Source: Verrucomicrobiota bacterium
GTDB taxonomy: Bacteria > Verrucomicrobiota > Verrucomicrobiia > Verrucomicrobiales > V1-33
Length of the DNA: 64,000 nt
Direction: 5' to 3'
Assembly (NCBI GenBank): GCA_003402705.1
Contig: QQNF01000003.1
Span: 62,001-126,000, forward strand
The notes beneath the pieces were generated by a model. The model worked only from the letters and a program-made list of their open reading frames with translations. It searched no databases and was not told the DNA's origin. The position numbers and the translations under genes were made by a program. Position 1 is the stretch's first letter. Each line of letters starts with the position of its first letter. This document shows, piece after piece, positions 32,897 through 62,648 of the stretch.

Positions 32897-35800
32897 ATGA
32901 AACTTTCCGCCTGCGCCATGGCTTGTGCCATCGGCCTCCTGCTCCCGTTTTCCGCAACCGCCGCCGTCGTCATCAACGAAATCCATTACCGCCCAGGCAC
33001 CGCATTCCCAGAAAACGCCGCACTCGAATTCATCGAACTCCACAACACCGCCAACGCCCCGGCAACCATCGGCGGCTGGAGCTTCACCAGCGGCATCAGC
33101 TACACCATCCCCTCCGGCACCATCCTTCCAGCTAACGGCTATCTCGTCATCGCCGCCAATCCGACCGCCGTCTCCACCCAGTGGAATGTGACAGGCATCC
33201 TCGGTCCCTGGCTCGCAGACACCGGTCTCGCCAATAACGGCGAACGCATCAGGCTATCCATGCCAGGCACCACCGCAGGCTCTCTCGTGACCGTCGACGA
33301 GGTCACCTACGCCAGTGAGGGCGACTGGGCCCAGCGCGTCCGCGAATCAACCTTCAATGGTTGGGACTGGCTCACCGCCGCCAGCGGCGGCGGGGCCTCG
33401 CTGGAACTCATCAATCCACTCCACTCCAACGCCAACGGCCAGAACTGGCTCCCTGGCACCGCCCCCGCCGGTGCCACCCCCGGAGCCGTCAACAGCGTCC
33501 GCGCCAACAACGTCGCCCCTCTCGTCAGCAGCGTCCGCCACCGCCCGGAAATACCCGCCCCCGGCCAGTCCGTCACCATCACCTGCACGCTGGATGATGA
33601 AACTCCGGCCTCCATCACCGCCACCCTCTTCTGGCGCAATGCCACCACCACGTCCCCTGGCCCGTTCCTTGCCGTCCCGATGACCTCGGACACCAGCGGC
33701 ACATGGACGGCTGCCATCCCCGGCCTCCCTGACAAATCCATCGCCGAATTCTACATCCAGGCCGGAGACGGCACCGCCGCCAGAACATGGCCAGCCCCCG
33801 CCGACGGTGCACAACAGGCAAACTGCCAGTTCCTCGTCGACAGCGAAGCACCCGGCCCCTCCGACTCGTTCTATCGCCTCATCCTCACAGCCACCGAAAA
33901 CGCCGCCTTCGAAAGCCTCGCCTCCAGCACTCCCTCCAGCGACCGCCAGTTCAATGCCACCCTGATCGCCTCGCAGGCCGGCAATCACACCGTCCGCTAC
34001 CGTTCCTCCATGCGGATCCGCGGCAACAGCAGCCGCAACTATCAATTCAAACCACTGCGCATCTCTATCCCCAACGACAACCCGTGGGACGGCGTCACCG
34101 ACTTCAATCTCAATCCCAAATACCCGTGGCTCCAGTTCATCGGCATGAAAATGCTCCGCGCCGCCGGCCTCGCCTCGTTCGACGTCCTGCCCATCGAACT
34201 CCGCCGCAACGGCATCGAACAATCCAGCGGCACCACTAGCGCTCAGGACTACGGCAAATGGGTCCGCATGGAAGAAATCAACGGCAACATGGCCACTCGC
34301 CAGTGGCCCCTCGCATCCTCCGGCAATCTCTACAAAAAAGGCCGCCCCGACGAATTCTGGCGCGCCACCCAGCCATCTCCCTCCACGCCCGACGGTCTCC
34401 TCGACGGCTGGTCCAAACAGAACAACTCCGCCGCCAACGACTGGAGCGACCTCACCAACTTCTTCCTCGCATGGCAGTCCGCCGCCGCCCCGTACTTCAA
34501 CGGCGAATCCCTCAACGACGCCGACACCGGCACATGGACCGGCAATCCATTCACCGACGATGCCCTCGATACCCTCGACGCCGTCGCAGAAACCAACCAG
34601 TGGGCCCGCTGGTTCGCCATGATGACCATCCTCCAGTCTAACGAAACCAACATCTCCAACGGCCAGGACGACGACTACTCCGTCTATTTCGCACCCGACA
34701 ACGCCGGTCGGCGGCGCCTCAATCTGCTGCCCCACGACCTCGACACCATCCTCGGCCAGGGCGACAGCCCCCTCGCCGCCAATGCCCGCGGCCTCTACGA
34801 CGCCACCGCCGAAAGTTCCATCTTCAAACCCCTCCTGCCTCTCCTCGGCAATTCCACCACCACAGGACACCCGGGCTTCCGCGCGCTCTATCACAGCAGC
34901 ATCCGCGTCCTCCTCGGATCGGTCTTCAACGCCGACACCGCCTCCGCCTCCGTCCCGCCAGCCCACGCCTTCATCGACAATCACCTCACCGGTTGGGTCC
35001 CGTCCGCCATGCGCGGCGTCCTCAAAACCTTCATGACCGCACGCCAGTCACATCTCCTCAATATCATCGGCAGCCCCGCCGTCATCCCGGCCGCCCCCAC
35101 CGCCACCTCCTCCCTCACCCAGCCACGCACCGGAGCCATCCTCAACGAAATCCTCGCCTCCAACGCCGCCGCCCACGCCAACGGATCCACCTTCCCGGAC
35201 GTCATCGAAATCCGCAACTCCTCCGCCGCTCCCGTCGATCTCAGCGGATTCACCCTGACAGACGATCCCGCCATCCGCACCAAATTCACCTTCCCGGCAG
35301 GCACAGTCCTCGCCCCGGATGCCCTCCTCATCGTCTCCGCCGACAGCGACTTCACCGCCCCCGGCCTCCACACCGGCTTCGCCCTCGATGATGGCGGCGA
35401 AATCGTCTACTTCCACGACAACGCCGCGACCCTCCTCGACTCCCTCCCCTTCGGCCCCCAGCCAGCCGACTTCAGCCTCAGCCGCACCGGTCCCGACGGA
35501 TCCACATGGACCCTTACCAACCCCTCCATCGGTCAGCCTAACGGCTCACCAGTCCCCCTCGGCCTCCCCCGCGACCTCCGCATCAACGAATGGTTCGCCG
35601 CACCCGACTTCCGCCTCCCCTCCGAATTCGTCGAACTCCACAACGCCACCACCCGCCCCATCCCCATGGGCGGGCTCCGGCTCACCGACGACTTCATCAA
35701 CGAACCGTCAAAACACACGCTGCCCGCCCTCAGCTTTGCCCCACCTAGCGGCTATACTCTCCTCCGCCCCTTCGGCAGCAGCGCTGATCCCGCAAAAGCC

Positions 35801-37990
35801 TCCGATCTCCCCTTCCGCCTCGACGCCAACTTCGGCTGGCTCGCCCTCACCGGTCAGAACGGCACGCTCATCGACCGCATCGACCTCATCGGCCAGAACC
35901 CGGACACCGCCACCGGCCGAACCCCGGACAGCGGCATCCCATGGGCTGACTTCTCCCTGCCGACCCCCGGCATCGCCAATGCCGCGCCACCCGCCACCAT
36001 CACCGCCCTAGCCAATCAGCTCCGCATCACCGAACTCCTCTTCCGCCCCAACGGCGGCAGCGACTTCGAATTCGTCGAACTCCAGAACACCGGCGCTACC
36101 ACCATCGATCTCTCCGGCGTCCGCTTCACCGGTGGCATCGACTACACCTTCCCCACAGCCACCTCGCTCGCCGCCGGCCGCTTCATCGTCGTCAGCCGCA
36201 GCCGCGACATCTTCGTCGCTCACTGGCCGTCCGCCGCCAGCATCCTCGCTCCAGGCCAGTTCACCGGAGCCCTCGACAACAGCGGCGAAACCATCACCCT
36301 CACGCTCCCCCTCCCATGGCGCGCCGCCATCCTCTCCTTCCGCTACGAACCAGCATGGGAACCGCTCGCCGCCACCGCCGGACACTCGCTCACCACCGTC
36401 GATGCCGCCACCACCGCCGCGCGCGACTGGGATCAGCGCACCACATGGTCCGCTTCACCTCAACCCGATGGCTCCCCGGGAAGCGCGGGCCCGCCCTCCA
36501 TCACCAGCACCCTCACCGCAGCCAGCACCACCGGCGACGCATTCTCCTATCAAATCACCGCTTCCCGCAACCCGACCGCCTTCGATGCCAGCGGCCTGCC
36601 TTCATGGCTCAGCCTCAATCCCGCCACCGGTCTCATCACCGGCACCACCGGCGCAGCAGGCACATGGCCCCTGCAGATCTCCGCCGAAAACTCCGGCGGC
36701 TCCGACACCAGAACCCTCACGCTCACCGTCACCGGATCCGGTCCCGCCGAGTCCCTCCAATGGGATTACACCCCCAGCGCCGCATTCGCCGGATTCCCCT
36801 TCCCCGTCCGCATCACCGCCCGCGACTCCAAGGGACGTCAGGCCCTAGCTGAACAGGGCTCTCTCGCCCTCAGCGCATCCATCCCCGGCGACACATCCTC
36901 CACCATCGTCTTCAGCGAGATCTCCGAACTCAACCCGGATCGCTTCGAAATCACCAACGTCACCAACCGCACCATCAGCACCGCCGGCTGGCGCGTCTTC
37001 GTCTCCCACAACAATCAGGCCATCTCCTCCTACTTCAACGTCCAGTGGAGTCTCCCCTCAACCCTCACCCCCGGCCAGACCATCCTCGTCCTCGACACCG
37101 CCAGCAGCAGCCTGCCAGGCGTCTTCTTCGGCGGCGACTTCCTCTGGGCCACCAACAGCAGGGCATGGGCCCTCATCGTTGATGCCGCTAACAATCCAGT
37201 CGACTTCATCACATGGGCCCACTCCGACGCCGACCTTCTCAGCGGCACCATCGTCATCGGCCAGAAATCCATCGCCGTCAGCTCCATCTGGAAAGGATCC
37301 GCTCTCCCCGCCCTCAATAATCGCGCCGCCCAGCGAAAAGGCACCGCCGATTCCGACAGCGCCGCCGACTGGGAAATCTTCGCCCCCGCCAGCGGCACAT
37401 GGGGATCTCCAAACCCCTCGCTCTCCCTCCCATGGCAGACCTCCGCTCCTCTCGCCGTCACCCCATCCACCATCACCCTCACCAATGGCGAGTTCACCGG
37501 CTGGCTCACCCTCGGAACCGCCGGACCTGTTCAGGTCTCCGCCATCGGCAACGGACGCAGCGCCCTCAGTAACACCATCGCCGCCGCTCCACCCCCCGCC
37601 GACGCCGACCTCGACAGCATGCCCGATGCCTGGGAGTCCTCCAATGGCACCAATCCTAACACCGACGACCGCACGGCCGATCCCGACGGCGACGGCCTCA
37701 GCAACTACACCGAATACCTCGGCGGCACGCTCCCGCTAGACCTCACCTCGGGCACCTTCGCCCTCTCCCTGCAGCCGCTCCCCGACGGTCGTCTCGGATT
37801 CTCCGCCAACGGTCAGCCCGGCCGCCCCTACCGCCTCGCATGGACCGACGGAATCCTCCCATGGACACCCGTCCCCGGCGGCGGCCTCATGTCCCCATCC
37901 GCCGCCCCGCAAAACACCACCGTCCAGCCTCCAATCGGCAGCAGCACCCGCGCCTTCTTCAGAGCCGAGCTGGCGCTTCCCCTTCCCTAA
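32897..37990 (+). CDS. Giant exported CotH-kinase/lamin-tail domain protein 1
   Basis: A 1697-residue exported protein with signal peptide MKLSACAMACAIGLLLPFSATA. Lamin-tail beta domains start near residue 23 (VVINEIHYRP), 745 (ILNEILASNAA), 895 (LRINEWFAAPD), 1038 (LRITELLFRPN) and possibly 1330. A CotH-like kinase region spans about 320-700 (RIRGNSSRNYQFKPLRISIP, NLLPHDLDTILGQ). A putative-Ig/cadherin-like domain lies near 1195-1280 (LPSWLSLNPATGLITGTTG). Near the end is an Asp-rich calcium motif (DADLDSMPDAWE, DPDGDGLSNYTEYL). CotH proteins phosphorylate other proteins; the target is unknown. It overlaps the next convergent gene by 32 bases. Confidence 0.88.
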   Translation: MKLSACAMACAIGLLLPFSATAAVVINEIHYRPGTAFPENAALEFIELHNTANAPATIGGWSFTSGISYTIPSGTILPANGYLVIAANPTAVSTQWNVTGILGPWLADTGLANNGERIRLSMPGTTAGSLVTVDEVTYASEGDWAQRVRESTFNGWDWLTAASGGGASLELINPLHSNANGQNWLPGTAPAGATPGAVNSVRANNVAPLVSSVRHRPEIPAPGQSVTITCTLDDETPASITATLFWRNATTTSPGPFLAVPMTSDTSGTWTAAIPGLPDKSIAEFYIQAGDGTAARTWPAPADGAQQANCQFLVDSEAPGPSDSFYRLILTATENAAFESLASSTPSSDRQFNATLIASQAGNHTVRYRSSMRIRGNSSRNYQFKPLRISIPNDNPWDGVTDFNLNPKYPWLQFIGMKMLRAAGLASFDVLPIELRRNGIEQSSGTTSAQDYGKWVRMEEINGNMATRQWPLASSGNLYKKGRPDEFWRATQPSPSTPDGLLDGWSKQNNSAANDWSDLTNFFLAWQSAAAPYFNGESLNDADTGTWTGNPFTDDALDTLDAVAETNQWARWFAMMTILQSNETNISNGQDDDYSVYFAPDNAGRRRLNLLPHDLDTILGQGDSPLAANARGLYDATAESSIFKPLLPLLGNSTTTGHPGFRALYHSSIRVLLGSVFNADTASASVPPAHAFIDNHLTGWVPSAMRGVLKTFMTARQSHLLNIIGSPAVIPAAPTATSSLTQPRTGAILNEILASNAAAHANGSTFPDVIEIRNSSAAPVDLSGFTLTDDPAIRTKFTFPAGTVLAPDALLIVSADSDFTAPGLHTGFALDDGGEIVYFHDNAATLLDSLPFGPQPADFSLSRTGPDGSTWTLTNPSIGQPNGSPVPLGLPRDLRINEWFAAPDFRLPSEFVELHNATTRPIPMGGLRLTDDFINEPSKHTLPALSFAPPSGYTLLRPFGSSADPAKASDLPFRLDANFGWLALTGQNGTLIDRIDLIGQNPDTATGRTPDSGIPWADFSLPTPGIANAAPPATITALANQLRITELLFRPNGGSDFEFVELQNTGATTIDLSGVRFTGGIDYTFPTATSLAAGRFIVVSRSRDIFVAHWPSAASILAPGQFTGALDNSGETITLTLPLPWRAAILSFRYEPAWEPLAATAGHSLTTVDAATTAARDWDQRTTWSASPQPDGSPGSAGPPSITSTLTAASTTGDAFSYQITASRNPTAFDASGLPSWLSLNPATGLITGTTGAAGTWPLQISAENSGGSDTRTLTLTVTGSGPAESLQWDYTPSAAFAGFPFPVRITARDSKGRQALAEQGSLALSASIPGDTSSTIVFSEISELNPDRFEITNVTNRTISTAGWRVFVSHNNQAISSYFNVQWSLPSTLTPGQTILVLDTASSSLPGVFFGGDFLWATNSRAWALIVDAANNPVDFITWAHSDADLLSGTIVIGQKSIAVSSIWKGSALPALNNRAAQRKGTADSDSAADWEIFAPASGTWGSPNPSLSLPWQTSAPLAVTPSTITLTNGEFTGWLTLGTAGPVQVSAIGNGRSALSNTIAAAPPPADADLDSMPDAWESSNGTNPNTDDRTADPDGDGLSNYTEYLGGTLPLDLTSGTFALSLQPLPDGRLGFSANGQPGRPYRLAWTDGILPWTPVPGGGLMSPSAAPQNTTVQPPIGSSTRAFFRAELALPLP

Positions 37991-39554
37991 CCGCCGCAAT
38001 CTCCCGCTCCACAGCCCGCAGCTTCCCAAACTCCCGCCGCCCAAACCACAGCGCCACCAGCCACCAGATCACTGCTGACATCAGCGCCGCAGAAAGCACC
38101 GCCGGCATCAGCTCAAGCACCATTCCCTGTCTCAGCTCGTACCACCCTGACGTGTAGTACCCGTCTCTGCCCAATCGCATCCGCATCAGGTCCCCGGCCA
38201 TTTCCTCCGCCATGGCCGGAGCCACAATCCCTGCTCCCGGCCACACCATCGACAGCAGCATCAGCCCCCTCGACGGAAACGGCCCCAACAGCGCCAGCAC
38301 GATCCCCGAAACCACCGCCCCGATCGCCGTCGCCGCCAGCCACCGCCAGAAGTTCCACGCCGCCAGCTTCCGGAAAATCCCCGCCAGCCCAATCGGGAAG
38401 ACAAAGAAACCCAGCGCGCCACAGCACCCCGTCGCGATCATCAGGGCCTCAACCCGCAGATTCACCGGGCTCCCACTGCCATTGTACGCCAAATAAGCCG
38501 CCGTCACTCCGGCCGCCGCAAGGACCCACAGCGTCGCGTAGATCAACCCCGTGTGCCACCCCGGCAGCAGCACTCGTCCCGCCATCCGCCCGAAAAACCC
38601 ACGCCGCGCAAACGGCAGCACCAGAGGCCTCAAATGCGCCGGTTGCTCACTCATCGCCTGCACCACCGTCAGCAGCGCCGCCCCTAGCGCAAAAAATCCA
38701 CCCGCCTCCCGGAAATCATTCTCCTTCGAATACACCGACAACACCGTCGCCACCGGCACCATCACCATCGCCGCCAATCGCCGCGGCGTCGCCCGATTCT
38801 CGGAGTCAGGAGCCAGTTGCGATGCCCCCAGATCCAGAAAGAAAAAAATCGCCCACACCAGCAGCACCACACAGTACCAGATCCCCGCCGTCCCGATATC
38901 GTCGTGCAGGTACTCAATCCCATACCGCTGCCTCGCGATCTGGAGAATCGCCCCGACGCAGAATCCAAACGTCGGCAGCAGCACCGCCAGCAGCACCGCC
39001 GCTCGTAACAGAAAATACTTCAGAAACGACAACCCCAGCAGCACCGCCGACGCCGTCAGCCCCAGCAGCAGGAACAACCCCAGCCACGCAATCTCCTGCA
39101 CCACGTCAATCCCGCCCGCAAAATACCGCAAAATTAGATAGGGAAGCACCGTCAGCGCCATCAGTACCTGCAGCGCCGCCGTCGCAACCCACTTGCCTAG
39201 CACAATCCGCCAGCCGCTCAGCCGCGTCAGCACCAGCGTGTCCATCGTGTTCCCGCCCATCTCCTCCCGCAGCGCCGCCGACAACCGCAGCGGCAGCAGC
39301 AGACACACCGGTCCCGCCAGACACCACCAGAAAACAATCCCCATGTCCTCGCCTCCCCTCCCCGCAAACATCAGGCTCAGCAGCGCCAGCAGCAGCTGCA
39401 CCCCCAGCAAACCCCACACAAAAAACGGCGACTTCAGCCCCATCCGCAGCTCCTTCACCAGCATCGGACTCATCCAGTCCCCAAAATCCTTCAGCGGACG
39501 GACTCCCCCAGACGGACTCACAGGCAAAGGCGGCGCTTCAGCAGACATGCCCAT
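37959..39554 (-). CDS. ABC-2-like multi-helix membrane protein
   Basis: A 531-residue protein with about 12 hydrophobic helices. The start resembles ABC-2 export permeases: SPMLVKELRMGLKSPFFVWG followed by helices, and EEMGGNTMDTLVLTRLSGWRIVLGKW, the cytoplasmic coupling-helix type segment. No ATPase gene is adjacent, so a partner encoded elsewhere or a different function is possible. The C-terminus overlaps the end of the convergent CotH gene by 32 bases. Confidence 0.65.
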   Translation of the reverse strand: MGMSAEAPPLPVSPSGGVRPLKDFGDWMSPMLVKELRMGLKSPFFVWGLLGVQLLLALLSLMFAGRGGEDMGIVFWWCLAGPVCLLLPLRLSAALREEMGGNTMDTLVLTRLSGWRIVLGKWVATAALQVLMALTVLPYLILRYFAGGIDVVQEIAWLGLFLLLGLTASAVLLGLSFLKYFLLRAAVLLAVLLPTFGFCVGAILQIARQRYGIEYLHDDIGTAGIWYCVVLLVWAIFFFLDLGASQLAPDSENRATPRRLAAMVMVPVATVLSVYSKENDFREAGGFFALGAALLTVVQAMSEQPAHLRPLVLPFARRGFFGRMAGRVLLPGWHTGLIYATLWVLAAAGVTAAYLAYNGSGSPVNLRVEALMIATGCCGALGFFVFPIGLAGIFRKLAAWNFWRWLAATAIGAVVSGIVLALLGPFPSRGLMLLSMVWPGAGIVAPAMAEEMAGDLMRMRLGRDGYYTSGWYELRQGMVLELMPAVLSAALMSAVIWWLVALWFGRREFGKLRAVEREIAAVREGEAPARL

Positions 39555-39583: not shown

Positions 39584-41149
39584 TCACGGACTGGCGTCCC
39601 CACCCGCTCCCGTCCCTGCCGGATCCCGCCGCACTCCCTCCGCCGCCTCACGGATCGCCGCCCGCGCCGTCTCATCCAGTCGCTCCAGCTGCCTCACCTG
39701 CATCGCCGCCCGCGGATTAGCCCGCAGCACCTTCTCGTGACGCATCATGAAATCCCAGTACAGCGTCGTGAACGGACACGCCTCCGGCCCAGTCGACAGC
39801 GCCGGATTCTTCGGACACCGCTGACAGTACCCGCTCATCCGCTGAATGTACTTCCCAGACGCAATGTACGGCTTCGACGCCATCAGCCCGCCATCCGCAT
39901 ACTGCGACATCCCGATCGTGTTAGGCATCTCCACCCACTCCACCGCATCGACATACACCGCCAGATACCACTCGTGCAGCTTCCGCGGGTTCACCCCGAC
40001 CAGCAGCGCGTACAGCCCCGTCACCATCAGGCGCTGAATGTGATGCGCGTACCCGTACTTCAAAGTCTGCCCCAGCGCATCACTCAGGCAGGCATATGGC
40101 GTCTCGCCAGTCCAGTAGAATCCCGGCAGCGGCTCGCTCGCCCCTAGCGCATTCCGTTCCTCATAGCCCGGCATGTGCATCCAGTAGATCCCGCGCACAT
40201 ACTCCCGCCACCCGAGGATCTGACGGATGAATCCCTCCACCGCCGCCAGCGGAGCCCGCCCATCCCGCCAAGCCTTCTCAGCCGCCGCCACCACTTCCGC
40301 AGCCACCAGCAATCCCAGGTTCAACGACGACGACAGCAGCGAATGCCACAACCACGGCTCGCCCGGCCACATCGCGTCCTGCCACCGCCCGAACCCGCCC
40401 AGCCGCCCACTCACAAATCCCTCCAGCGCCCGCAGCGCATCCTCCCGCGTCACCGGCCACCCGAATGTCTCAAGGCTCCCCGGATGATCCGGAAACCGCA
40501 ACGCCACCAGCGCTATCACCTCCCGCGTCACCGCATCCGGCGGAAACATCAGCGGCACCGGCACGTCCTCAGGACCCTTCCGCCCGAAACTCCCCCGGTT
40601 CTCCTCGTCGTAATTCCACTCCCCACCCGCCGGCTTGCCATCCTCCATCAGAATCCCGTAACGCCGCCGCATCTCCCGGTAGAAATACTCCATCCGCAGT
40701 TCCTTGCGCCCCGCCGCATGCTTCCGGAACGCCTCCAGACTGCAGAAATATCGCCGGTCCTCACAAATCGTCAGCGGCACGCCCGCGCGCCGGCAGACCT
40801 GCTCCACTCCCCGCAGAATCCGATATTCCCCGGGGTGCGTGCACCACACTTCCTCCGGCCGCCGCTCCTCCAGAAACTCCGCCAGCACGCCCCCTAACGT
40901 CCCCGGATGATCAGGCTTATCCAGCGCCGTGTAATCCACCGTCCAACCATCCGCCCGCAGTCGATCCCGGAAATGCCTCATCGCCGCCAGAAATAACACG
41001 ATCCGCTGCCGGTGCGACCACACCACCGTCGCCTCCGATGACGCCTCCGCCATCCAGACCACATCGCGATCCCGGTCCGCCCCGTCAAAAACAGAGGCAT
41101 CGGCACTTAGCTGATCACCAAAGACCAGCAGTAGGCGTCTCAGGGGCAT
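39584..41149 (-). CDS. Iron-sulfur photolyase (FeS-BCP / PhrB type)
   Basis: A 521-residue cryptochrome/photolyase-family protein. It starts LRRLLLVFGDQLS, has the deoxyribodipyrimidine photolyase-related N-domain and a C-terminal FAD-binding helical domain (ILGWREYVRGIYW, YGYAHHIQRLMVTG, YVDAVEWVEMPN). Four Cys suit the Fe-S cluster of this class: one in TPYACLSDALG and three in GYCQRCPK and EACPF. Known members repair (6-4) photoproducts. The ATG at 41149 has AGGAG seven bases upstream; the ATG at 41155 lies too close to it. Confidence 0.93.
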   Translation of the reverse strand: MPLRRLLLVFGDQLSADASVFDGADRDRDVVWMAEASSEATVVWSHRQRIVLFLAAMRHFRDRLRADGWTVDYTALDKPDHPGTLGGVLAEFLEERRPEEVWCTHPGEYRILRGVEQVCRRAGVPLTICEDRRYFCSLEAFRKHAAGRKELRMEYFYREMRRRYGILMEDGKPAGGEWNYDEENRGSFGRKGPEDVPVPLMFPPDAVTREVIALVALRFPDHPGSLETFGWPVTREDALRALEGFVSGRLGGFGRWQDAMWPGEPWLWHSLLSSSLNLGLLVAAEVVAAAEKAWRDGRAPLAAVEGFIRQILGWREYVRGIYWMHMPGYEERNALGASEPLPGFYWTGETPYACLSDALGQTLKYGYAHHIQRLMVTGLYALLVGVNPRKLHEWYLAVYVDAVEWVEMPNTIGMSQYADGGLMASKPYIASGKYIQRMSGYCQRCPKNPALSTGPEACPFTTLYWDFMMRHEKVLRANPRAAMQVRQLERLDETARAAIREAAEGVRRDPAGTGAGGDASP

Positions 41150-41205
41150 GGACATACTCCTACCTACGCCCGCCGCCCCCATCCCGCTGCCCGTGATTCA
41201 GCACA

Positions 41206-43245
41206 TCACTGTGCCAGTGGATGCGTCGCCATCGCGTTCCAGTCCGCCATAAACTGCGTATGAATCGCCTCACTCTCAATCCGCAACATCGTCTCGTCAT
41301 TCCCAGTCAGCGCCGGATCCGTGAAATTCTGCGATCCCGTCAGCACCACCTTCCGCTGCGCACTCCGCCACACGCCATCCATCAGCAGATACTTGGAATG
41401 CAATGGAGCATACCGCCGCACCGGAATCCCCGCACCCTCCAGCAGCGCCAGAATCTCCGATCCCGCCTCTGCAGGATTCACCAGCACCGCCACGTCCACT
41501 CCCGCCTGGTGCAGCGTCACCAGTTTCCGCGCAATCGCACTCCGCGGATTCGACCACGTCGCCATCGCCACCCTGATCGACCCACCCGCATTCGCATCCA
41601 GTCCATCCAGCGCCTCCACCACCGGATCACCGCTGCCAGTACCGGCATCCGCCGTTGCCCTCGGAAAACAATGCAGCCCAATCGGCCCCGTCTGTCCGCT
41701 CACCCGGTAGTAATCCGGCTCCGCCACGCACAGCGACATATCGTTCCAATAACGCAGGTACGCGTCGTAAACCTCAGGCCGACCCCGGAGAATCACCATG
41801 TTGTTGTTCCGCGTCAGCTGGAATTCCGTCAGGTTCGCCGACGATTGCACCGTCACCTTCGCCCCGTCCCCCGTCACATCGGAAAACAGGAAGAACTTGT
41901 TATGATTGATCCGCCCACCCATCGCTCCCATCACCTCTCCCTGCGCATTCCGGCAGGCAATCACATGCCCCGCCGGAAGTCGTTCCACAAGGCTCTGCAC
42001 CGCCGGAAAATCACCGCCGGACAGGATGCGCACATCCACCCCGCGCTCCTGCGCCGCCACAAACGCATCCGCCATGCTCATCCGATCCCACGTGTATACC
42101 GCCGCCCTAACCGACGACCCGGGCTTCGCCTTCGCCAGCAATTCCAGCAATCGGCCTTCAAGCACCGTATCCGCCGTCGTTCCGTCCGGACCAATCGCGC
42201 TGAATAACGCCTCAACCTGCCCGTCCAGCAGCGGCGCTGCCACCGGTGCCGCCTCCCGCTGCACCACCCGGTAAAACCCGCTCTCCCCCACATCATCCAC
42301 AAATCCTAGCGCCCGACCCGCCGCCTCAAACGGCACCCCGCCGTCCGCAGGCCACACCGCCAGATCCCGACTCCGCTGCAGTTCGTAAAATCTCCCAGGC
42401 ACCGTGTCCCACGACAACCGCACCCGATCCGACGGCACCGGCGCAATCGTCAGTGAAGGCGGAGCCGGCGGCCCCGGTATCGTGATCTTCAGATCATCAA
42501 TCCCCACGCCCGCATCAAAACCGCCATCGTCCCGGTCATTCCACCGCAGAAACAGCACCGCCCCCGGTTGCCAGTCAAGACCCGTCACGTCGCCGCTCAC
42601 CTTGCTCCGGAACGCCTCACTGTTGCCATCCCGCTGCCGCGCCGGATTGTCCCCGTCAACCGCCAGCGTCAGCGTCAATTCCCCCGGCGCGATCGCATCA
42701 AGGTCCGATGCCGCCGTCATCAGCGGGCTCGTCAGAAAACTGGTCTCCGTCAACTCGGGCCCCGCCACCCCCCACGCAAATGCCAGCCGGTTCGTGTACT
42801 GATTCGCCGTCGTCGTGCTCTGCAGCATCCACGTCTCACGCCAGAACTCAATGTGCAGCGCCGTGACCACCTTCCCCGTGTCATTGATCAGCCTCGTGCC
42901 GAATGCCATCGCCGCCGTCCCGGAACCCAGCGCCCCGAGCGCCCGTTCCGCAACCCCACTGGAACCATACGAATACAACCTTCCTCCCGTCAGCTGCGCC
43001 GTCTGGATCGTCACGTTCGACGTCCCCGTCCCCGTGATCCGCGCCGCCCGCCATCCCGGCAAACCCGGCACCGCCACCTGCAACCCTAGCGTCGCAGTGC
43101 CCGCAAGGCTTTGCGACCCAACCGCAGGAAGTGTGTCAAACCCCTCCTCGTAGCTCCCGGTAAACGATATCTGCGCCGCCGCAGAAACCACACACGCCAG
43201 CACCACCGCCGCTGTCAGCCCAGCAGCATGAAATTCAGTCATCAT
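41206..43245 (-). CDS. Exported phospholipase D-superfamily protein with a PEP-CTERM-paralogue N-domain
   Basis: A 679-residue protein with a signal peptide (MMTEFHAAGLTAAVVLACVVSAAA). Residues about 27-265 align along their whole length with the protein encoded just upstream (shared FxxLPAV, GDNPxRQRDGNS and GIDD motifs). A short fibronectin-like segment follows (LSWDTVPGRFYELQRSRDL, about 290-350). The C-terminal half is a PLD-superfamily domain with both HKD motifs (HNKFFLFSD and HSKYLLMDG) and QSSANLT and TGSQNFTD after them. The expected activity is hydrolysis of a phosphodiester, lipid or nucleic acid, outside the cell. No VPEP anchor is present. It starts 25 bases after the paralogue's stop. 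Confidence 0.85.
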   Translation of the reverse strand: MMTEFHAAGLTAAVVLACVVSAAAQISFTGSYEEGFDTLPAVGSQSLAGTATLGLQVAVPGLPGWRAARITGTGTSNVTIQTAQLTGGRLYSYGSSGVAERALGALGSGTAAMAFGTRLINDTGKVVTALHIEFWRETWMLQSTTTANQYTNRLAFAWGVAGPELTETSFLTSPLMTAASDLDAIAPGELTLTLAVDGDNPARQRDGNSEAFRSKVSGDVTGLDWQPGAVLFLRWNDRDDGGFDAGVGIDDLKITIPGPPAPPSLTIAPVPSDRVRLSWDTVPGRFYELQRSRDLAVWPADGGVPFEAAGRALGFVDDVGESGFYRVVQREAAPVAAPLLDGQVEALFSAIGPDGTTADTVLEGRLLELLAKAKPGSSVRAAVYTWDRMSMADAFVAAQERGVDVRILSGGDFPAVQSLVERLPAGHVIACRNAQGEVMGAMGGRINHNKFFLFSDVTGDGAKVTVQSSANLTEFQLTRNNNMVILRGRPEVYDAYLRYWNDMSLCVAEPDYYRVSGQTGPIGLHCFPRATADAGTGSGDPVVEALDGLDANAGGSIRVAMATWSNPRSAIARKLVTLHQAGVDVAVLVNPAEAGSEILALLEGAGIPVRRYAPLHSKYLLMDGVWRSAQRKVVLTGSQNFTDPALTGNDETMLRIESEAIHTQFMADWNAMATHPLAQ

Positions 43246-43270
43246 GTCAGGAAATTGGACGCCCGCCACC

Positions 43271-44116
43271 TCACCACCGCCGGCGCGGCAGCAGCACTGC
43301 CGCAGCACCCACCATCACCGAGATCCACACCGACGGCTCCGGCACCGCCGAAAAGGCAAAATCATCAATCCCCTGCGTCGCATCAAATCCCGGCGAATCA
43401 CTGTCGCTCCAGCGCAGATACAGGCTCGCACCCGGCTCCCACGATATCCCGCTCACCGTCGCCGTCTTCAGCGTCCGGAACCCCGCACTGTTCCCGTCCC
43501 GCTGCCGGTTCGGATTGTCACCGCTCGCCGCGCCTAACACCATATTGCTCGCCGGACTCACCGCATCAAGATCCGCCAGCGCAATCAACGATGAATTCGT
43601 CAGATAGTTCGCCGCAGTCGCGGTTCCACCCGAAAACCCATAGGCAAATGCCATCCGGTCCTCGGCCGCATTCTGCGTCCCCGTCCCCTGCACCGCCCAG
43701 ATCTCATGCGCGTAACTCACCGTGAACGATGTCAGCGTCGCGCCGCTGTTGTTCACCAGCGACGTACCGACCGCTCCGAAGAAGGTCCCGGACCCCAGCG
43801 CCGCCACCGCGCGGTCAGACACAGCCGAACCAGCGGAATAGAATCGCCCGCCCGTTGAGTATGCTACGTTGATCGCCGTGTCCGTCGTCGCTGACCCCCC
43901 GCGCCGCGCCACTTCCCAGTCGCTCGCCCCAGGCAATGCCACCTGAATTCCAACCACCCCCGTCCCCACCAGCGTCGTGTTCACCGCCGGCAGCGCATTG
44001 AAATTCTGCGTCACCAGCAGGCCCTCAGCTGTGTAGGAAATCGCCGCAGAGGCCATCGGCAGGCCAGCAGCTGTCATAGCAAGAAACGGCAGGACAAAAG
44101 TGATGTTCGGGTTCAC
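43271..44116 (-). CDS. PEP-CTERM sorting domain protein
   Basis: A 281-residue exported protein. The signal peptide is MNPNITFVLPFLAMTAAGLPMASA. A single beta-rich domain of about 230 residues follows, containing FNALPAVN, GDNPNRQRDGNSAGF and TQGIDDFAFS. The C-terminus has the VPEPS motif, a hydrophobic helix and the basic end PRRRW, the exosortase sorting signal. No exosortase gene lies in the window. It is upstream of and paralogous to the phospholipase D gene, probably co-transcribed. Confidence 0.88.
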   Translation of the reverse strand: MNPNITFVLPFLAMTAAGLPMASAAISYTAEGLLVTQNFNALPAVNTTLVGTGVVGIQVALPGASDWEVARRGGSATTDTAINVAYSTGGRFYSAGSAVSDRAVAALGSGTFFGAVGTSLVNNSGATLTSFTVSYAHEIWAVQGTGTQNAAEDRMAFAYGFSGGTATAANYLTNSSLIALADLDAVSPASNMVLGAASGDNPNRQRDGNSAGFRTLKTATVSGISWEPGASLYLRWSDSDSPGFDATQGIDDFAFSAVPEPSVWISVMVGAAAVLLPRRRW

Positions 44117-44268: not shown

Positions 44269-46239
44269 TCATCCCTCGTCCCCGCCAGTACTCGCCGCCA
44301 GCGACGCCACCACGCTGAAATCCTCCAGCGTCGTCGTATCACCCTTCACCTCCCCACCCGCACAGATCTCCTTCAGGAGCCGCCGCATGATCTTCCCCGA
44401 CCGCGTCTTCGGCAGCGCCGTCGTGAACCGGATGTCGTCGGGCCGCGCAATCGCCCCGATCTCCTTCGCCACATGCGCCTTCAGCGCCTTCGTCAGTTCC
44501 GCACTCGCATGCTGCCCCGTCTTCAGCGTCACAAACGCCACCACCCCCTGCCCCTTGATCTCGTCAGGACGCCCCACCACCGCCGCCTCCGCCACCGCAG
44601 GATGCGAAACCAGCGCACTCTCCACCTCCGCCGTCCCCAGCCGGTGCCCTGACACATTCAGCACGTCATCCAAGCGCCCCACAATCCAGAAATTCCCGTC
44701 CTTGTCACGCCGCGCCCCGTCTCCCGTCAGATAATACCCCAGCTTCTTGTACTCCTTCCAGTACACATCCACATAACGCTTCTTGTCCCCCCACAGCGTC
44801 CGCAGCATCGACGGCCATGGCTTCCGCACCACCAACCGCCCGCCCTGGTTCGGCCCCACTTCATTACCCTCCTCATCCACAATCGCCGCATCGACCCCGA
44901 AGAACGGCAGCGTCGCCGTCCCAGGCTTCGTCGGCGTCGCCCCAGGCAGCGGCGAAATCAGAATCGACCCCGTCTCGGTCTGCCACCACGTGTCCACAAT
45001 CGGACAACGCCCGCCGCCAATCATCCTGTGATACCACATCCACGCCTCCGGATTGATCGGCTCACCCACACTCCCTAACAACCTAAGGCTCGACAGATCG
45101 TACTTGGTCACATGCTCGTCGCCCCACTTGATGAACGCCCGGATCGCCGTCGGCGCAGTATACAAGATCGTCGCCTGGTACTTCTCGATGATCTCCCAGA
45201 ACCTCCCCATGTGCGGCGTGTCCGGCGCTCCCTCGTACATCAGCACCGTCGCCCCGTTCAGCAGCGGCCCGTACGCAATGTAACTGTGCCCCGTGATCCA
45301 CCCCACATCCGCCGTGCACCAGTAAATGTCATCATCCCGCAGATCGAAAATGTACTTCGCCGTCGCATACGTCTGCACCGCATAACCACCCGTCGTGTGC
45401 AGAATCCCCTTCGGCTTCCCCGTGCTCCCGCTCGTGTACAGAATGAACAACGGGTGCTCCGCATCAAATCCCACCGCCGGACAAACCGCGTTCACCTTCG
45501 CCATCTCATCGTGCCACCACGCATCCCGACCCACCGTCATGTGCACTTCCTGCGCCGTCCGCTTCAGCACAATCACCCGCTTCACCGGCGTCTTCCCCAT
45601 CGCCAGCGCCGTGTCCACATTGTCCTTCAATGGCACCACCTTCGCCCGCCGCCAGCCCCCGTCCGCCGTAATCACATGCGTCGCCCCACTATCAAGAATC
45701 CGGTCGTAAATCGCATTGGCACTGAACCCGCCGAAAATCACACTGTGAACCGCCCCGATGCGCGCACACGCCAGCATCGCAATCACCGCCTCCGGCACCA
45801 TCGGCATGTAGATGATCACCCGGTCCTTCGCCTTCACCCCATTCGCCTTCAGCATGTTCGCCGCCCGGCTCACCTCGCGCTGCAGCTGCAGATACGTCAG
45901 CGTCCGCGTGTCCCCGGGCTCACCCTCGAAAATGATCGCCGCCTTGTTCTTCCGCGCCGGATTCGCCGCATGCCGATCCACACAGTTCTCCGCCATGTTC
46001 AGCTTCCCGCCCGTAAACCACTTCGCAAACGGCGCCGTCCACTCCAGCACTTTCCCCCACTTCGTCTGCCATGTCAGCTCCCCGGCCTCCCGCGCCCAGA
46101 ACTTGTCAGGCGTCTTCACACTCTCCTCCCACAACTTCTTGTACTCCGCCATCGATCCGACTCGCGCCTTCTTCGCAAAAGCGACCGACGGCTTGAAAAC
46201 GCGTTTTTCAACAAGGCTGGATTCGATCTTCTGGGACAT
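44269..46239 (-). CDS. acsA: Acetyl-CoA synthetase
   Basis: A 656-residue AMP-forming enzyme activating acetate to acetyl-CoA. The AMP-binding signature [11 protein letters not shown], adenylate motif [18 protein letters not shown], hinge [20 protein letters not shown] and the C-terminal catalytic, acetylation-regulated Lys in [14 protein letters not shown] are all visible. Full length for the family. The N-terminal [18 protein letters not shown] is family-like. It is preceded by the tig terminator and transcribed separately. Confidence 0.97.
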
Positions 46240-58649: not shown

Positions 58650-61600
58650 ATGAATCGCGCCGTGCCCATCCTGCTGTCTGCCGCCGCACTCCTGTGCCCG
58701 GCAACCGCCCCAGCACGCCCCTCCGCTCCTTACATCTCCGAAATCGTCGCCCGCAACACCAACGGCATCACCGACGAAGACGGCGACCGCACCGACTGGA
58801 TCGAACTCTTCAACCCCAACGGCCAGCCCTTCGACCTCACCGGCTGCTCCCTCTCCGACAATCCCGCAGATCCCGCCAAATGGGCCTTCCCAGCCCAAAT
58901 CTCCATCCCCGCTGGCGGCTACCTCGTCGTCTTCGCCAGCAGCAAAAACCGCGCCACCGCCGGCCTCCCGCTCCACACCTCCTTCAGCATCGCCTCCGCA
59001 GGCGAATACCTCAGCTTCACCGACGCCTCCGGCAACGTCATCTCCTCCTTCTCCCCTTCCTATCCACCCCAGTCCGCAAACGTCTCATGGGGCGTCATCT
59101 CCACCGTCCCATCCCTCCGCTACGCCGCCTTCAACTCACCCACCCCCGGCACCGCCAACAACACCGCCAGCGCCCCAGCCCCCCCAGTCTCCTTCTCCCC
59201 ACCAAGCCGCACCTTCCCACTCACCTCCTCCATCTCCGTCGCCATCACCACCCCATGGCTCGGCCCCGTCATCCGCTACACCACCGACGGCAGCGTCCCC
59301 AACGCAACCTCCCCCATCGTCTCCGGCCCCCTCACCATCTCCGCCACAAGACGCATCCGCGCCCGCGCCTTCGAACAAGGCCGCCCCGACGGCCCACTCC
59401 GCGGCGAATCCTATCTCGCTCTCGACCCCGCCGCCGCCGACTTCTCCTCCAACCTCCCCATCGTCCTCACCCACCTCTGGAACTCCGGCCCGCTCCCCAC
59501 CTCCGAAGCCCCGCGCGAAGGCACATGGATGATCTTCGAACCTTCCTCCCCCTCTTCCCTCTCACGCCTCTCCAACCCTCCCTCCCTCTCCGGCTACGGC
59601 CGCTTCGAACGCCGCGGCTCCTCCACCCTCTCCGCCGCCAAATACTCCTTCTCCCTCGAAGCATGGGACGAAAGCAACGCCGACCTCCCCATCTCACCCT
59701 TCGGCATGCCCGCAGAATCCGACTGGATCCTCCACGCCCCCTTCCAGTTCGACCGATCCCTCATCCGCAATAATCTCCTCTATCAACTCAGCCGCAACGC
59801 CGGCCGCTACGCACCACGCACCCGCTTCGTCGAACACTTCCACAGCACCGCCGACGCCATCGTCAACGGCGCCATCTCCGGCCCAGACTACTTCGGCGTC
59901 TACAGCTTCATGGAAAAAATCGACCGCGACGGCGACCGCGTCGATGTCGAAAAACTCTCCCTCCTCAACAACTCGGAACCCGAAATCTCCGGCGGCTACA
60001 TCCTCAAAATCGACCGCCTCGACACCGGCGACTCAGGCCTCGCCGCCGCCAACCAGCTCCTCGGCCTCGTCTACCCAAAGGAACGCTCGCCCAACCCTGC
60101 CACCATGGCCAGCACTCCCCAGAAAATCTGGCTCCAGAATTACCTCAACTCCATGTGGGCCGCTCTCAATGCCCCGGACTTCTGGAAACCGGACTCCGGC
60201 TACGCCAGATTCATCGACCCCGCCGCCGCCATCGACCACCACCTCCTCAATACCACAGCCAAAAACATCGACGCCCTCCGCCTCAGCGCCTACTTCCACA
60301 AACCTCGCTCCGCCCGTCTCTCCCCAGGCCCAGTCTGGGACTTCGACCGCTCCATGGGCTCCGCAGACGGCCGCGACCTCAACCCCCGCTCATGGCGCGG
60401 CGAAGGCGGTGACCTCGGCACCGACTTCTTCCACTACCCATGGTACGCCGAAATGTTCCGCGACTCAAACTTCTGGCAGGCATGGATCGACCGACTCGAC
60501 GCCCTCCGCAACGGCCCCCTCCACACCACCCGCGTCCACGCCCTCATCGACCAGCTCGCCGCCGAACTCAACCCCTCCCCTCTCCCCCCGGGCCTCGCCG
60601 CTTCCCCCGCCGCCCGCAATCAGCTCCGCTGGGCCTCCTCCACCTTCACCCCTCGCCCACCCAATCCCTCCACCCCCGGCACCGACGGCTCCTTCTCCGG
60701 CGAAATCGCATGGCTCCGCAACTGGTGGGCCGCTCGCCTCGCCTTCATCGACGGCCAATTCACCCGCCCGCCCTCCGCCTCCCCACCCCCAGGCACCGCC
60801 ACTCCAGACACCTCCGTCTCCCTCTCCTCCCCCAGTCTCTCCGTCCCTGGCGCAAAAATCTACTTCACCACAGACGGCTCAGACCCCCGCCGCTTCGACA
60901 CCACCCACGATACCCAGGAACCCTCCGTCACCTTCATCCCCGCAATCCACACCATCCGCGGCATCGTCCCTAACCTCCCCTTCCACTCCACATGGGGCTC
61001 CGCATGGCGCGGCTCAGACCTCAACAACAACGGCGACCACACCGACGACTTCGACGACTCCTCATGGCACGCCAACCCCTCTGGCTCCATCGCAGGCGTA
61101 GGCTACGACGACTCCACCGGCCCCTCCTCCATCAGCTACCTCCCCTTCATCGGCCTCCGCTGGCTCTCCGCCCCCTCCGGCGACAACTCCAGCGTCATGA
61201 AATCCGTCAACCAGTCCTGCTACCTCCGCATCCCTTTCCAAACCGACGCCGCTTCCCTCAACGACCTCGTCTTCCTCACCCTCCGCGCTCGCTTCGACGA
61301 CGGCTTCGTCGCCTTCCTCAACGGCTCGGAAATCGCACGCGCCAACCCGCCCCCATCCTACCCCACCACCCCGCTCGCATGGAACGCCGGCGCACGCGCC
61401 ACCAACGCAGACTCCAGCGCCATCCAGGAAGCCGTCTTCAACGTCTCCGCAGCCATCCCTCTCCTCCACCCCGGGAACAACCTCCTCGCCATCCACGGGC
61501 TCAACTACGGCCTCTCCAGCTCGGACTTCCTCTTCCAGGCCACCCTCGCCGGCGGCCCAGCCTTCTCCGACGCCCCGGAACCCTCCCCCTCCGCCATCGA

Positions 61601-62648
61601 ATACTCCTCCCCCATCCCCATCTCCTCCCCTACCATCATCACCGCCCGCACCTACAACCCAGCCACCCCCTCCGACCCTCCCACCCAGAACGGCGGCGGC
61701 TCCGGCAACGTCCCCAACGGCTCACGCTGGAGCGCCCCAGTCAAACTCCAGTACTTCCCAGGCACCATCCCCGCCTCCCCTCAAAACCTCACCCTCTCCG
61801 AAATCCTCTACCACCCCGCAAGTCCCTCCGCCTCAGAAACCGCCGCCGGCTTCCTCTCCGAAAACGACTTCGAATTCATCCGCCTCACCAATTCCTCCAC
61901 CTCCCCCATCGACCTCACCGGCATCCTCTTCACCGCAGGCATCTCCTTCTCCGCTGCCCCTAACCTCCAGAACCTCCTCCCCCCCAACGCCAGCACCGTC
62001 ATCGTCCGCAACGCCCGCGCATGGTCCGCCCGCTTCGGCTCCCTCTGGCCCATCCTCGGCGAATTCTCCGGCCAGCTCGACAACGGCGGCGAATCCATCT
62101 CCCTCCTCTCCGCCTCAGGCGAACCCATCGCCAGCTTCACCTACGACGACCGCTCCCCATGGCCCAACGACAGCCCTCGCGGCTTCTCCATCGTCCTCTC
62201 CCCCAATCTCCCACCAGACCACCCTGCCTCATGGTCCCCCTCCCTTGACCCCGGCGGCTCAGGCGTCCACTCCTTCGCCCTCTGGCGTCAACGCCACTTC
62301 CCAGACGCCCCAGACCCCTCAGAATCCCTCGCCCTCGCCGACCCCGACGCCGACGGTCTCCCCAATCTCATCGAATACGCCCTCGCCACCGACCCCGCAC
62401 GCCCAGGCCCCATCCCTTCCCCAGCCCTCTCCCTCTCCCCTTCACCCTCCCTCTCCATCGCCCGACGCATCACCTCCGACCTCTCATGGGCCCCGGAAGA
62501 CATCTCCTTCCCCTCCTCCCCTTCCCCCATCCACTCCCTCCCCTCCACCTCCACTCTCTCCACCTCCACAGAATCCGCCTCATGGCCCCTCCCTCCTCCC
62601 ACCTGCCCACACCGCCGCTCCCTCAGACTCCGCGTCCGGCTCCCCTGA
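58650..62648 (+). CDS. Giant exported CotH-kinase/lamin-tail domain protein 2
   Basis: A 1332-residue exported protein with signal peptide MNRAVPILLSAAALLCPATAPA. A lamin-tail domain spans 28-140 (YISEIVARNTNGITDEDGD). Chitobiase-C-like beta domains lie near 175-250 (IRYTTDGSVPNATSPIVSGP) and 710-780 (IYFTTDGSDPRRF). A CotH kinase region spans about 270-680 (VWDFDRSMGSADGRDL). A discoidin-like segment follows, then a further lamin-tail domain near 1045 (LTLSEILYHPASPSAS). The end has one Asp-rich motif (DPDADGLPNLIEYALATDP). It shares plan but not domain order with protein 1. The substrate is unknown. Confidence 0.87.
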   Translation: MNRAVPILLSAAALLCPATAPARPSAPYISEIVARNTNGITDEDGDRTDWIELFNPNGQPFDLTGCSLSDNPADPAKWAFPAQISIPAGGYLVVFASSKNRATAGLPLHTSFSIASAGEYLSFTDASGNVISSFSPSYPPQSANVSWGVISTVPSLRYAAFNSPTPGTANNTASAPAPPVSFSPPSRTFPLTSSISVAITTPWLGPVIRYTTDGSVPNATSPIVSGPLTISATRRIRARAFEQGRPDGPLRGESYLALDPAAADFSSNLPIVLTHLWNSGPLPTSEAPREGTWMIFEPSSPSSLSRLSNPPSLSGYGRFERRGSSTLSAAKYSFSLEAWDESNADLPISPFGMPAESDWILHAPFQFDRSLIRNNLLYQLSRNAGRYAPRTRFVEHFHSTADAIVNGAISGPDYFGVYSFMEKIDRDGDRVDVEKLSLLNNSEPEISGGYILKIDRLDTGDSGLAAANQLLGLVYPKERSPNPATMASTPQKIWLQNYLNSMWAALNAPDFWKPDSGYARFIDPAAAIDHHLLNTTAKNIDALRLSAYFHKPRSARLSPGPVWDFDRSMGSADGRDLNPRSWRGEGGDLGTDFFHYPWYAEMFRDSNFWQAWIDRLDALRNGPLHTTRVHALIDQLAAELNPSPLPPGLAASPAARNQLRWASSTFTPRPPNPSTPGTDGSFSGEIAWLRNWWAARLAFIDGQFTRPPSASPPPGTATPDTSVSLSSPSLSVPGAKIYFTTDGSDPRRFDTTHDTQEPSVTFIPAIHTIRGIVPNLPFHSTWGSAWRGSDLNNNGDHTDDFDDSSWHANPSGSIAGVGYDDSTGPSSISYLPFIGLRWLSAPSGDNSSVMKSVNQSCYLRIPFQTDAASLNDLVFLTLRARFDDGFVAFLNGSEIARANPPPSYPTTPLAWNAGARATNADSSAIQEAVFNVSAAIPLLHPGNNLLAIHGLNYGLSSSDFLFQATLAGGPAFSDAPEPSPSAIEYSSPIPISSPTIITARTYNPATPSDPPTQNGGGSGNVPNGSRWSAPVKLQYFPGTIPASPQNLTLSEILYHPASPSASETAAGFLSENDFEFIRLTNSSTSPIDLTGILFTAGISFSAAPNLQNLLPPNASTVIVRNARAWSARFGSLWPILGEFSGQLDNGGESISLLSASGEPIASFTYDDRSPWPNDSPRGFSIVLSPNLPPDHPASWSPSLDPGGSGVHSFALWRQRHFPDAPDPSESLALADPDADGLPNLIEYALATDPARPGPIPSPALSLSPSPSLSIARRITSDLSWAPEDISFPSSPSPIHSLPSTSTLSTSTESASWPLPPPTCPHRRSLRLRVRLP

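Follow-up and report, generated by a model that had tools for sequence, protein, structure and literature searches.

The locus lies on the minus strand of the window, by which we mean the whole 64,000-nucleotide stretch of DNA that was analysed, and consists of two adjacent genes. The first (43271..44116) is an open frame for a PEP-CTERM protein of 281 amino acids that ends in a TIGR02595 tail and has orthologues in the genomes G010, G011 and G003. The second encodes a protein of about 680 amino acids in which a signal region is followed by a domain resembling the neighbouring protein, a fibronectin-like linker and a domain of the phospholipase D (PLD) superfamily. Both open frames were found where the initial annotation had placed them, and the fibronectin-like segment and PLD domain that it described after the shared domain are present. 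The start that it gave for the PLD gene, 43308, is too early: the GTG at that position sits inside the PEP-CTERM gene and the methionine at 43248 is kept in both orthologues, for which reasons the ATG at 43248 is most likely the true start and the gene is taken here as 41206..43248. This leaves 22 bases between the stop codon of the PEP-CTERM gene and the ATG of the PLD gene on the same strand, a distance that makes co-transcription of the two plausible. A promoter and terminator scan gave no signal above chance.

The pair is bordered on one side by acs, a gene at 44269-46239 whose sequence identifies its product as acetyl-CoA synthetase, and on the other by a photolyase-related DPRP gene (39584-41182), which directly follows the PLD gene. 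Further along, the window encodes a hydrophobic membrane-type protein of 531 residues (37959-39554) that has no Pfam match and is represented in G010 by a tandem pair with 90% and 85% identity to the window protein. Lamin-tail and CotH kinase domains occur in two large proteins encoded at 32897-37990 and 58650-62648. The nearest named relatives of the genome are metagenome-assembled genomes of Verrucomicrobiaceae, one of them labelled pond.

The PEP-CTERM protein aligns with the first 240 or so residues of the PLD protein at 107 identities in 242 positions (44%; 63% similar; BLASTP E 3e-62), in agreement with the whole-length alignment claimed at the outset. As this alignment scores 195 bits and the maximum among 100 shuffles was 22.7 bits, the similarity is not due to chance, and the homology supports descent of the two domains from one ancestor, one copy being anchored-type and the other non-anchored. 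The shared module occupies about residues 24-257 of the PEP-CTERM protein (43346..44047, minus strand; profile match 7.4e-69) and the N-terminal ~235 residues of the PLD protein (42466..43176, minus strand; profile match 7.2e-74). Its length is about 226 residues and its conserved columns are FxxLP, RALGxLxSG, an E-x-W pair, DGN...R and LRWxD...GxD...IDD. The motifs that the initial annotation had listed as shared map to these columns; they do occur in both proteins, and for the most part they are positions conserved across a far larger family of domains and not a signature of the pair.

The sorting signal on the PEP-CTERM copy consists of a VPEP motif, a hydrophobic stretch and an RRR end (43274..43345, minus strand). 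The TIGR02595 match to this tail is borderline: against a cut-off of 16 bits, it scores 18.8 bits when the genome is searched and 14.3 bits when the whole protein is scanned. Three exosortase (PF09721) matches over the cut-off were found in the genome and, together with the tail match, bear out the exosortase-type signal proposed earlier. The genome encodes about 30 PEP-CTERM proteins; given this number and the three exosortases, the 43271-44116 protein is one client of many. It has the signal region, PEP motif, hydrophobic stretch and basic end of the PEP-CTERM/exosortase sorted proteins described previously (PMC1569441), with an exosortase in the genome, and differs from them in that its body is an unnamed module and its tail-less homologue is the adjoining enzyme fusion. 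That homologous proteins occur in pairs of which one has a PEP-CTERM tail and the other lacks it had already been described in 2006 (PMC1569441).

With a profile of 19 rows, the shared module was detected in roughly one in seven Verrucomicrobiota genomes (53 of 388), distributed over 39 genera. With the whole PLD protein as the query, matches were obtained in 50 of the 387 genomes of the order, all to the N-terminal domain except for the full-length copies of the genus itself and a single PLD half, that of G002. Searches of Pfam, NCBIfam and PDB sequences gave no match to the module, save four stray single-member matches, and its sequence profile matched none of the solved structures. Structure prediction of the two proteins, from shallow six-row alignments drawn from the proteins of the window and of related loci, returned mean pLDDT values of 36 and 41, which are of very low confidence. 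The literature search found no paper on the module or on PLD with PEP-CTERM, and no experiment on members of the family.

Most stand-alone copies of the module end in PEP-CTERM. Among 71 larger module-bearing proteins scanned, at least 27 matches to phosphoesterase domains were recorded (at least 16 Exo_endo_phos, at least 3 Endonuclease_NS, at least 1 Endonuclease_1 (Endonuclease I) and at least 7 Metallophos), these partner counts being lower bounds to which one alignment contributes the first 25 of 44 families listed. The other domains encountered included pectate lyase, porphyranase, chondroitinase-like, BD-FAE, CotH, LTD, LamG and Ig-like repeats. The frequent, non-exclusive pairing of the module with secreted phosphoesterases is a lead and not a result, since the phosphoesterase share counts kin, most of the Exo_endo_phos cases being related proteins.

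Several further copies of the module were noted. In G010 and G011, a CotH/LTD-type protein bears it at the N-terminus. The window's own genome holds a third copy outside the window, in a 1087-residue protein (L051:3656-6916, G000:C14) where the module is fused to RCC1-like repeats, which were named by eye ('VAWG...VPAGLSGVTAIAAG'). Close-set copies also occur in G681, G499 and G419, and neighbouring copies are therefore not peculiar to the 41206-44116 locus. At L138 of G419 (G419:C120:15000-31000), two stand-alone module proteins flank a module-bearing beta-helix protein of chondroitinase-B-like type, forming an anchored-plus-enzyme neighbourhood with a lyase instead of a PLD.

The PLD protein begins with a predicted signal peptide (43177..43248, minus strand) that has a hydrophobic core and an AxA-type end and is fast-evolving, though on few changes counted. 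Between the module and the catalytic part lies the fibronectin-like linker of the YELQRSRDLAVW type (42244..42465, minus strand), which is weakly matched elsewhere in the same genome too. Both halves of the PLD-superfamily domain (41209..42243, minus strand) are recognised by PLDc_2 (PF13091) in two stretches (103.1 bits, cut-off 27; 1.4e-29). The initial annotation credited the domain with both HKD motifs. The second, HSKYLLMD...GSQN (41326..41400, minus strand), is indeed complete; in the first, HNKFFLFS...SSAN (41833..41904, minus strand), serine replaces the aspartate of HxKx4D and SSAN replaces GSxN. The aspartate position is variable in relatives, which do not keep the aspartate either, and the serine is thus a property of the group and not a sign of decay; it may alter activity.

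PLD halves of the same type were found in 7 of the 388 genomes of the phylum at E 1e-8, six of them weak. The domain aligns over its whole length, at about 31% identity, with Streptomyces and haloarchaeal PLD-like proteins (WP_257375596.1, WP_331737964.1, WP_254525596.1, WP_246975673.1), which share an H-N-K-F first motif with SSxN/TSAN and a second motif with GSxN. These four proteins are plasmid-borne and stand-alone and, unlike the protein described here, possess neither the N-terminal module nor the fibronectin-like linker. When a profile of the PLD half was compared with solved structures, the nearest relatives were mostly nucleases, namely Nuc (1byr), MitoPLD/Zucchini, NucT and PLD3, all of which have the HxK plus (G/S)SxN active-site pattern. 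The module-bearing secreted endonuclease/exonuclease/phosphatase and Endonuclease_NS proteins of Verrucomicrobiota have a comparable multi-domain arrangement, in which the same module is joined to a phosphoesterase, whereas their catalytic fold differs from that of PLD. Nuc and NucT are single-motif chains that act as dimers; the present protein differs from them in carrying two motifs in one chain together with the added module.

The earlier proposal of a secreted PLD with nucleic acid or lipid as its extracellular target is supported as plausible. If lipid were the substrate, the protein would be a secreted phospholipase D engaged in scavenging phosphate or fatty acids, and the module would serve simply as a spacer or for adhesion. 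Annotated relatives are named phospholipase D-like and a phospholipase, 7e0m, is one of the distant solved relatives, in keeping with such a role, but the predominance of nucleases among the nearest solved relatives and their presence among the other partners of the module speak against it, and we consider a lipid-acting enzyme unlikely, with perhaps a minor share of the probability. A nuclease-type enzyme is the reading that we prefer.

Both genes, with the same flanks, are present in three of the four species of the genus, and the order acs - PEP - PLD - DPRP is kept in G010 and G011. Neither protein was matched in G012, the other species of the genus, where a different gene (by eye seryl-tRNA synthetase) follows acs and DPRP is on another contig, so that G012 presents no clean empty site. 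In G003, of a sister genus, the PEP-CTERM protein is 56% identical and the gene after it encodes a lamin-tail protein; no PLD lies downstream, and the contig starts just upstream. In G002, of the same family, the PLD half is 48% identical and the N-terminal part is cut off by the contig end.

In the phylogenetic tree, the G003 protein groups with the PEP copies (99/96) and the PLD-type copies form the sister group (100/98, whole set). The two copies therefore split before the genera did, and the duplication is older than the genus and took place within the family. The tree speaks against a recent duplication in the genome, and lends no support to the earlier picture of a sorting signal exchanged for a PLD part as a recent event in this genome. 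Between-species dN/dS estimates (Nei-Gojobori) were 0.10-0.11 and 0.09-0.14 in the N-terminal and PLD domains of the PLD protein, respectively, and 0.21-0.24 in the PEP copy; the acs control gave 0.03. These low values are those of purifying selection, and hence both genes are maintained.

The initial annotation had viewed the genes as a dedicated two-component surface system, in which the anchored copy would hold the soluble PLD copy at the envelope through pairing of the like domains while the PLD acted on incoming DNA or lipids. The adjacency of the genes on one strand at 22 bases, their retention in three species, the purifying selection on both proteins and the occurrence of stand-alone copies near a fusion or other copies elsewhere (G419, G681, G499) would all suit such a system. 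The module, however, has many unrelated partners, G003 keeps the PEP copy beside a lamin-tail gene without a PLD, G012 lacks a match to either protein and has a different gene beside acs, and the two copies are only 44% identical. The profile search with the shared domain, which the annotation had suggested, located the module in 53 of the 388 genomes. A PLD fusion next to a PEP-CTERM copy was confirmed only in three closely related species among the 387 genomes of the order (with G002 cut by the contig end), and did not recur across the lineages sampled. The annotation had also stated that the pair would lose its meaning as a system if the domain were a generic module with random neighbours and the fusion unique to this genome; this largely applies, in that the module is generic and has many partners, but the fusion is not unique to this genome and occurs in three related species. 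We accordingly regard the dedicated system as quite improbable, more so than a lipid-acting enzyme. A defence nuclease against phages or plasmids is the least probable of all. Weak profile matches to the PLD-type defence proteins DrmC and DpdK would favour it, but they fall far below the curated cut-offs and reflect the PLD superfamily (DISARM DrmC, NF038319: 22.2 bits against a cut-off of 133). The PLD protein has by its sequence an export signal, and none of the neighbouring genes examined was recognised as part of DISARM or of another defence system.

On balance, the locus probably encodes a secreted PLD phosphodiesterase of the nuclease type equipped with a common accessory module, and next to it a sorted copy of this module. 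The product of the 41206-43248 gene would be exported and would degrade nucleic acid (or phospholipid) outside the cell as a means of scavenging. The N-terminal module of the protein appears to be an accessory part that Verrucomicrobiota attach to secreted hydrolases, and would probably serve to hold the enzyme near the cell surface or to bind matrix or substrate. The upstream gene would supply the stand-alone module with a PEP-CTERM tail, by which an exosortase would sort it to the envelope; both copies stem from the old duplication within the family and have been kept adjacent in one genus. Because the module is widespread on many secreted enzymes, the pair is more likely an instance of ordinary domain reuse than a special system, although the conservation in three species and the purifying selection on both genes leave room for a joint function. 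A bolder proposal, which we put forward as a long shot, is that the module binds cell-surface polysaccharide or extracellular nucleic acid and so places secreted phosphodiesterases, the PLD included, at the surface; the exosortase-sorted stand-alone copies would then make up a docking layer in which anchored and enzyme-borne copies cooperate.

The pair by itself changes little, and the module is the more useful product of this analysis. Absent from Pfam and NCBIfam, it is common to exosortase-sorted surface proteins and to secreted nucleases, phosphatases and polysaccharide lyases, and may merit curation. Knowing its fold and ligand would shed light on the function of some PEP-CTERM proteins, which is still poorly understood.
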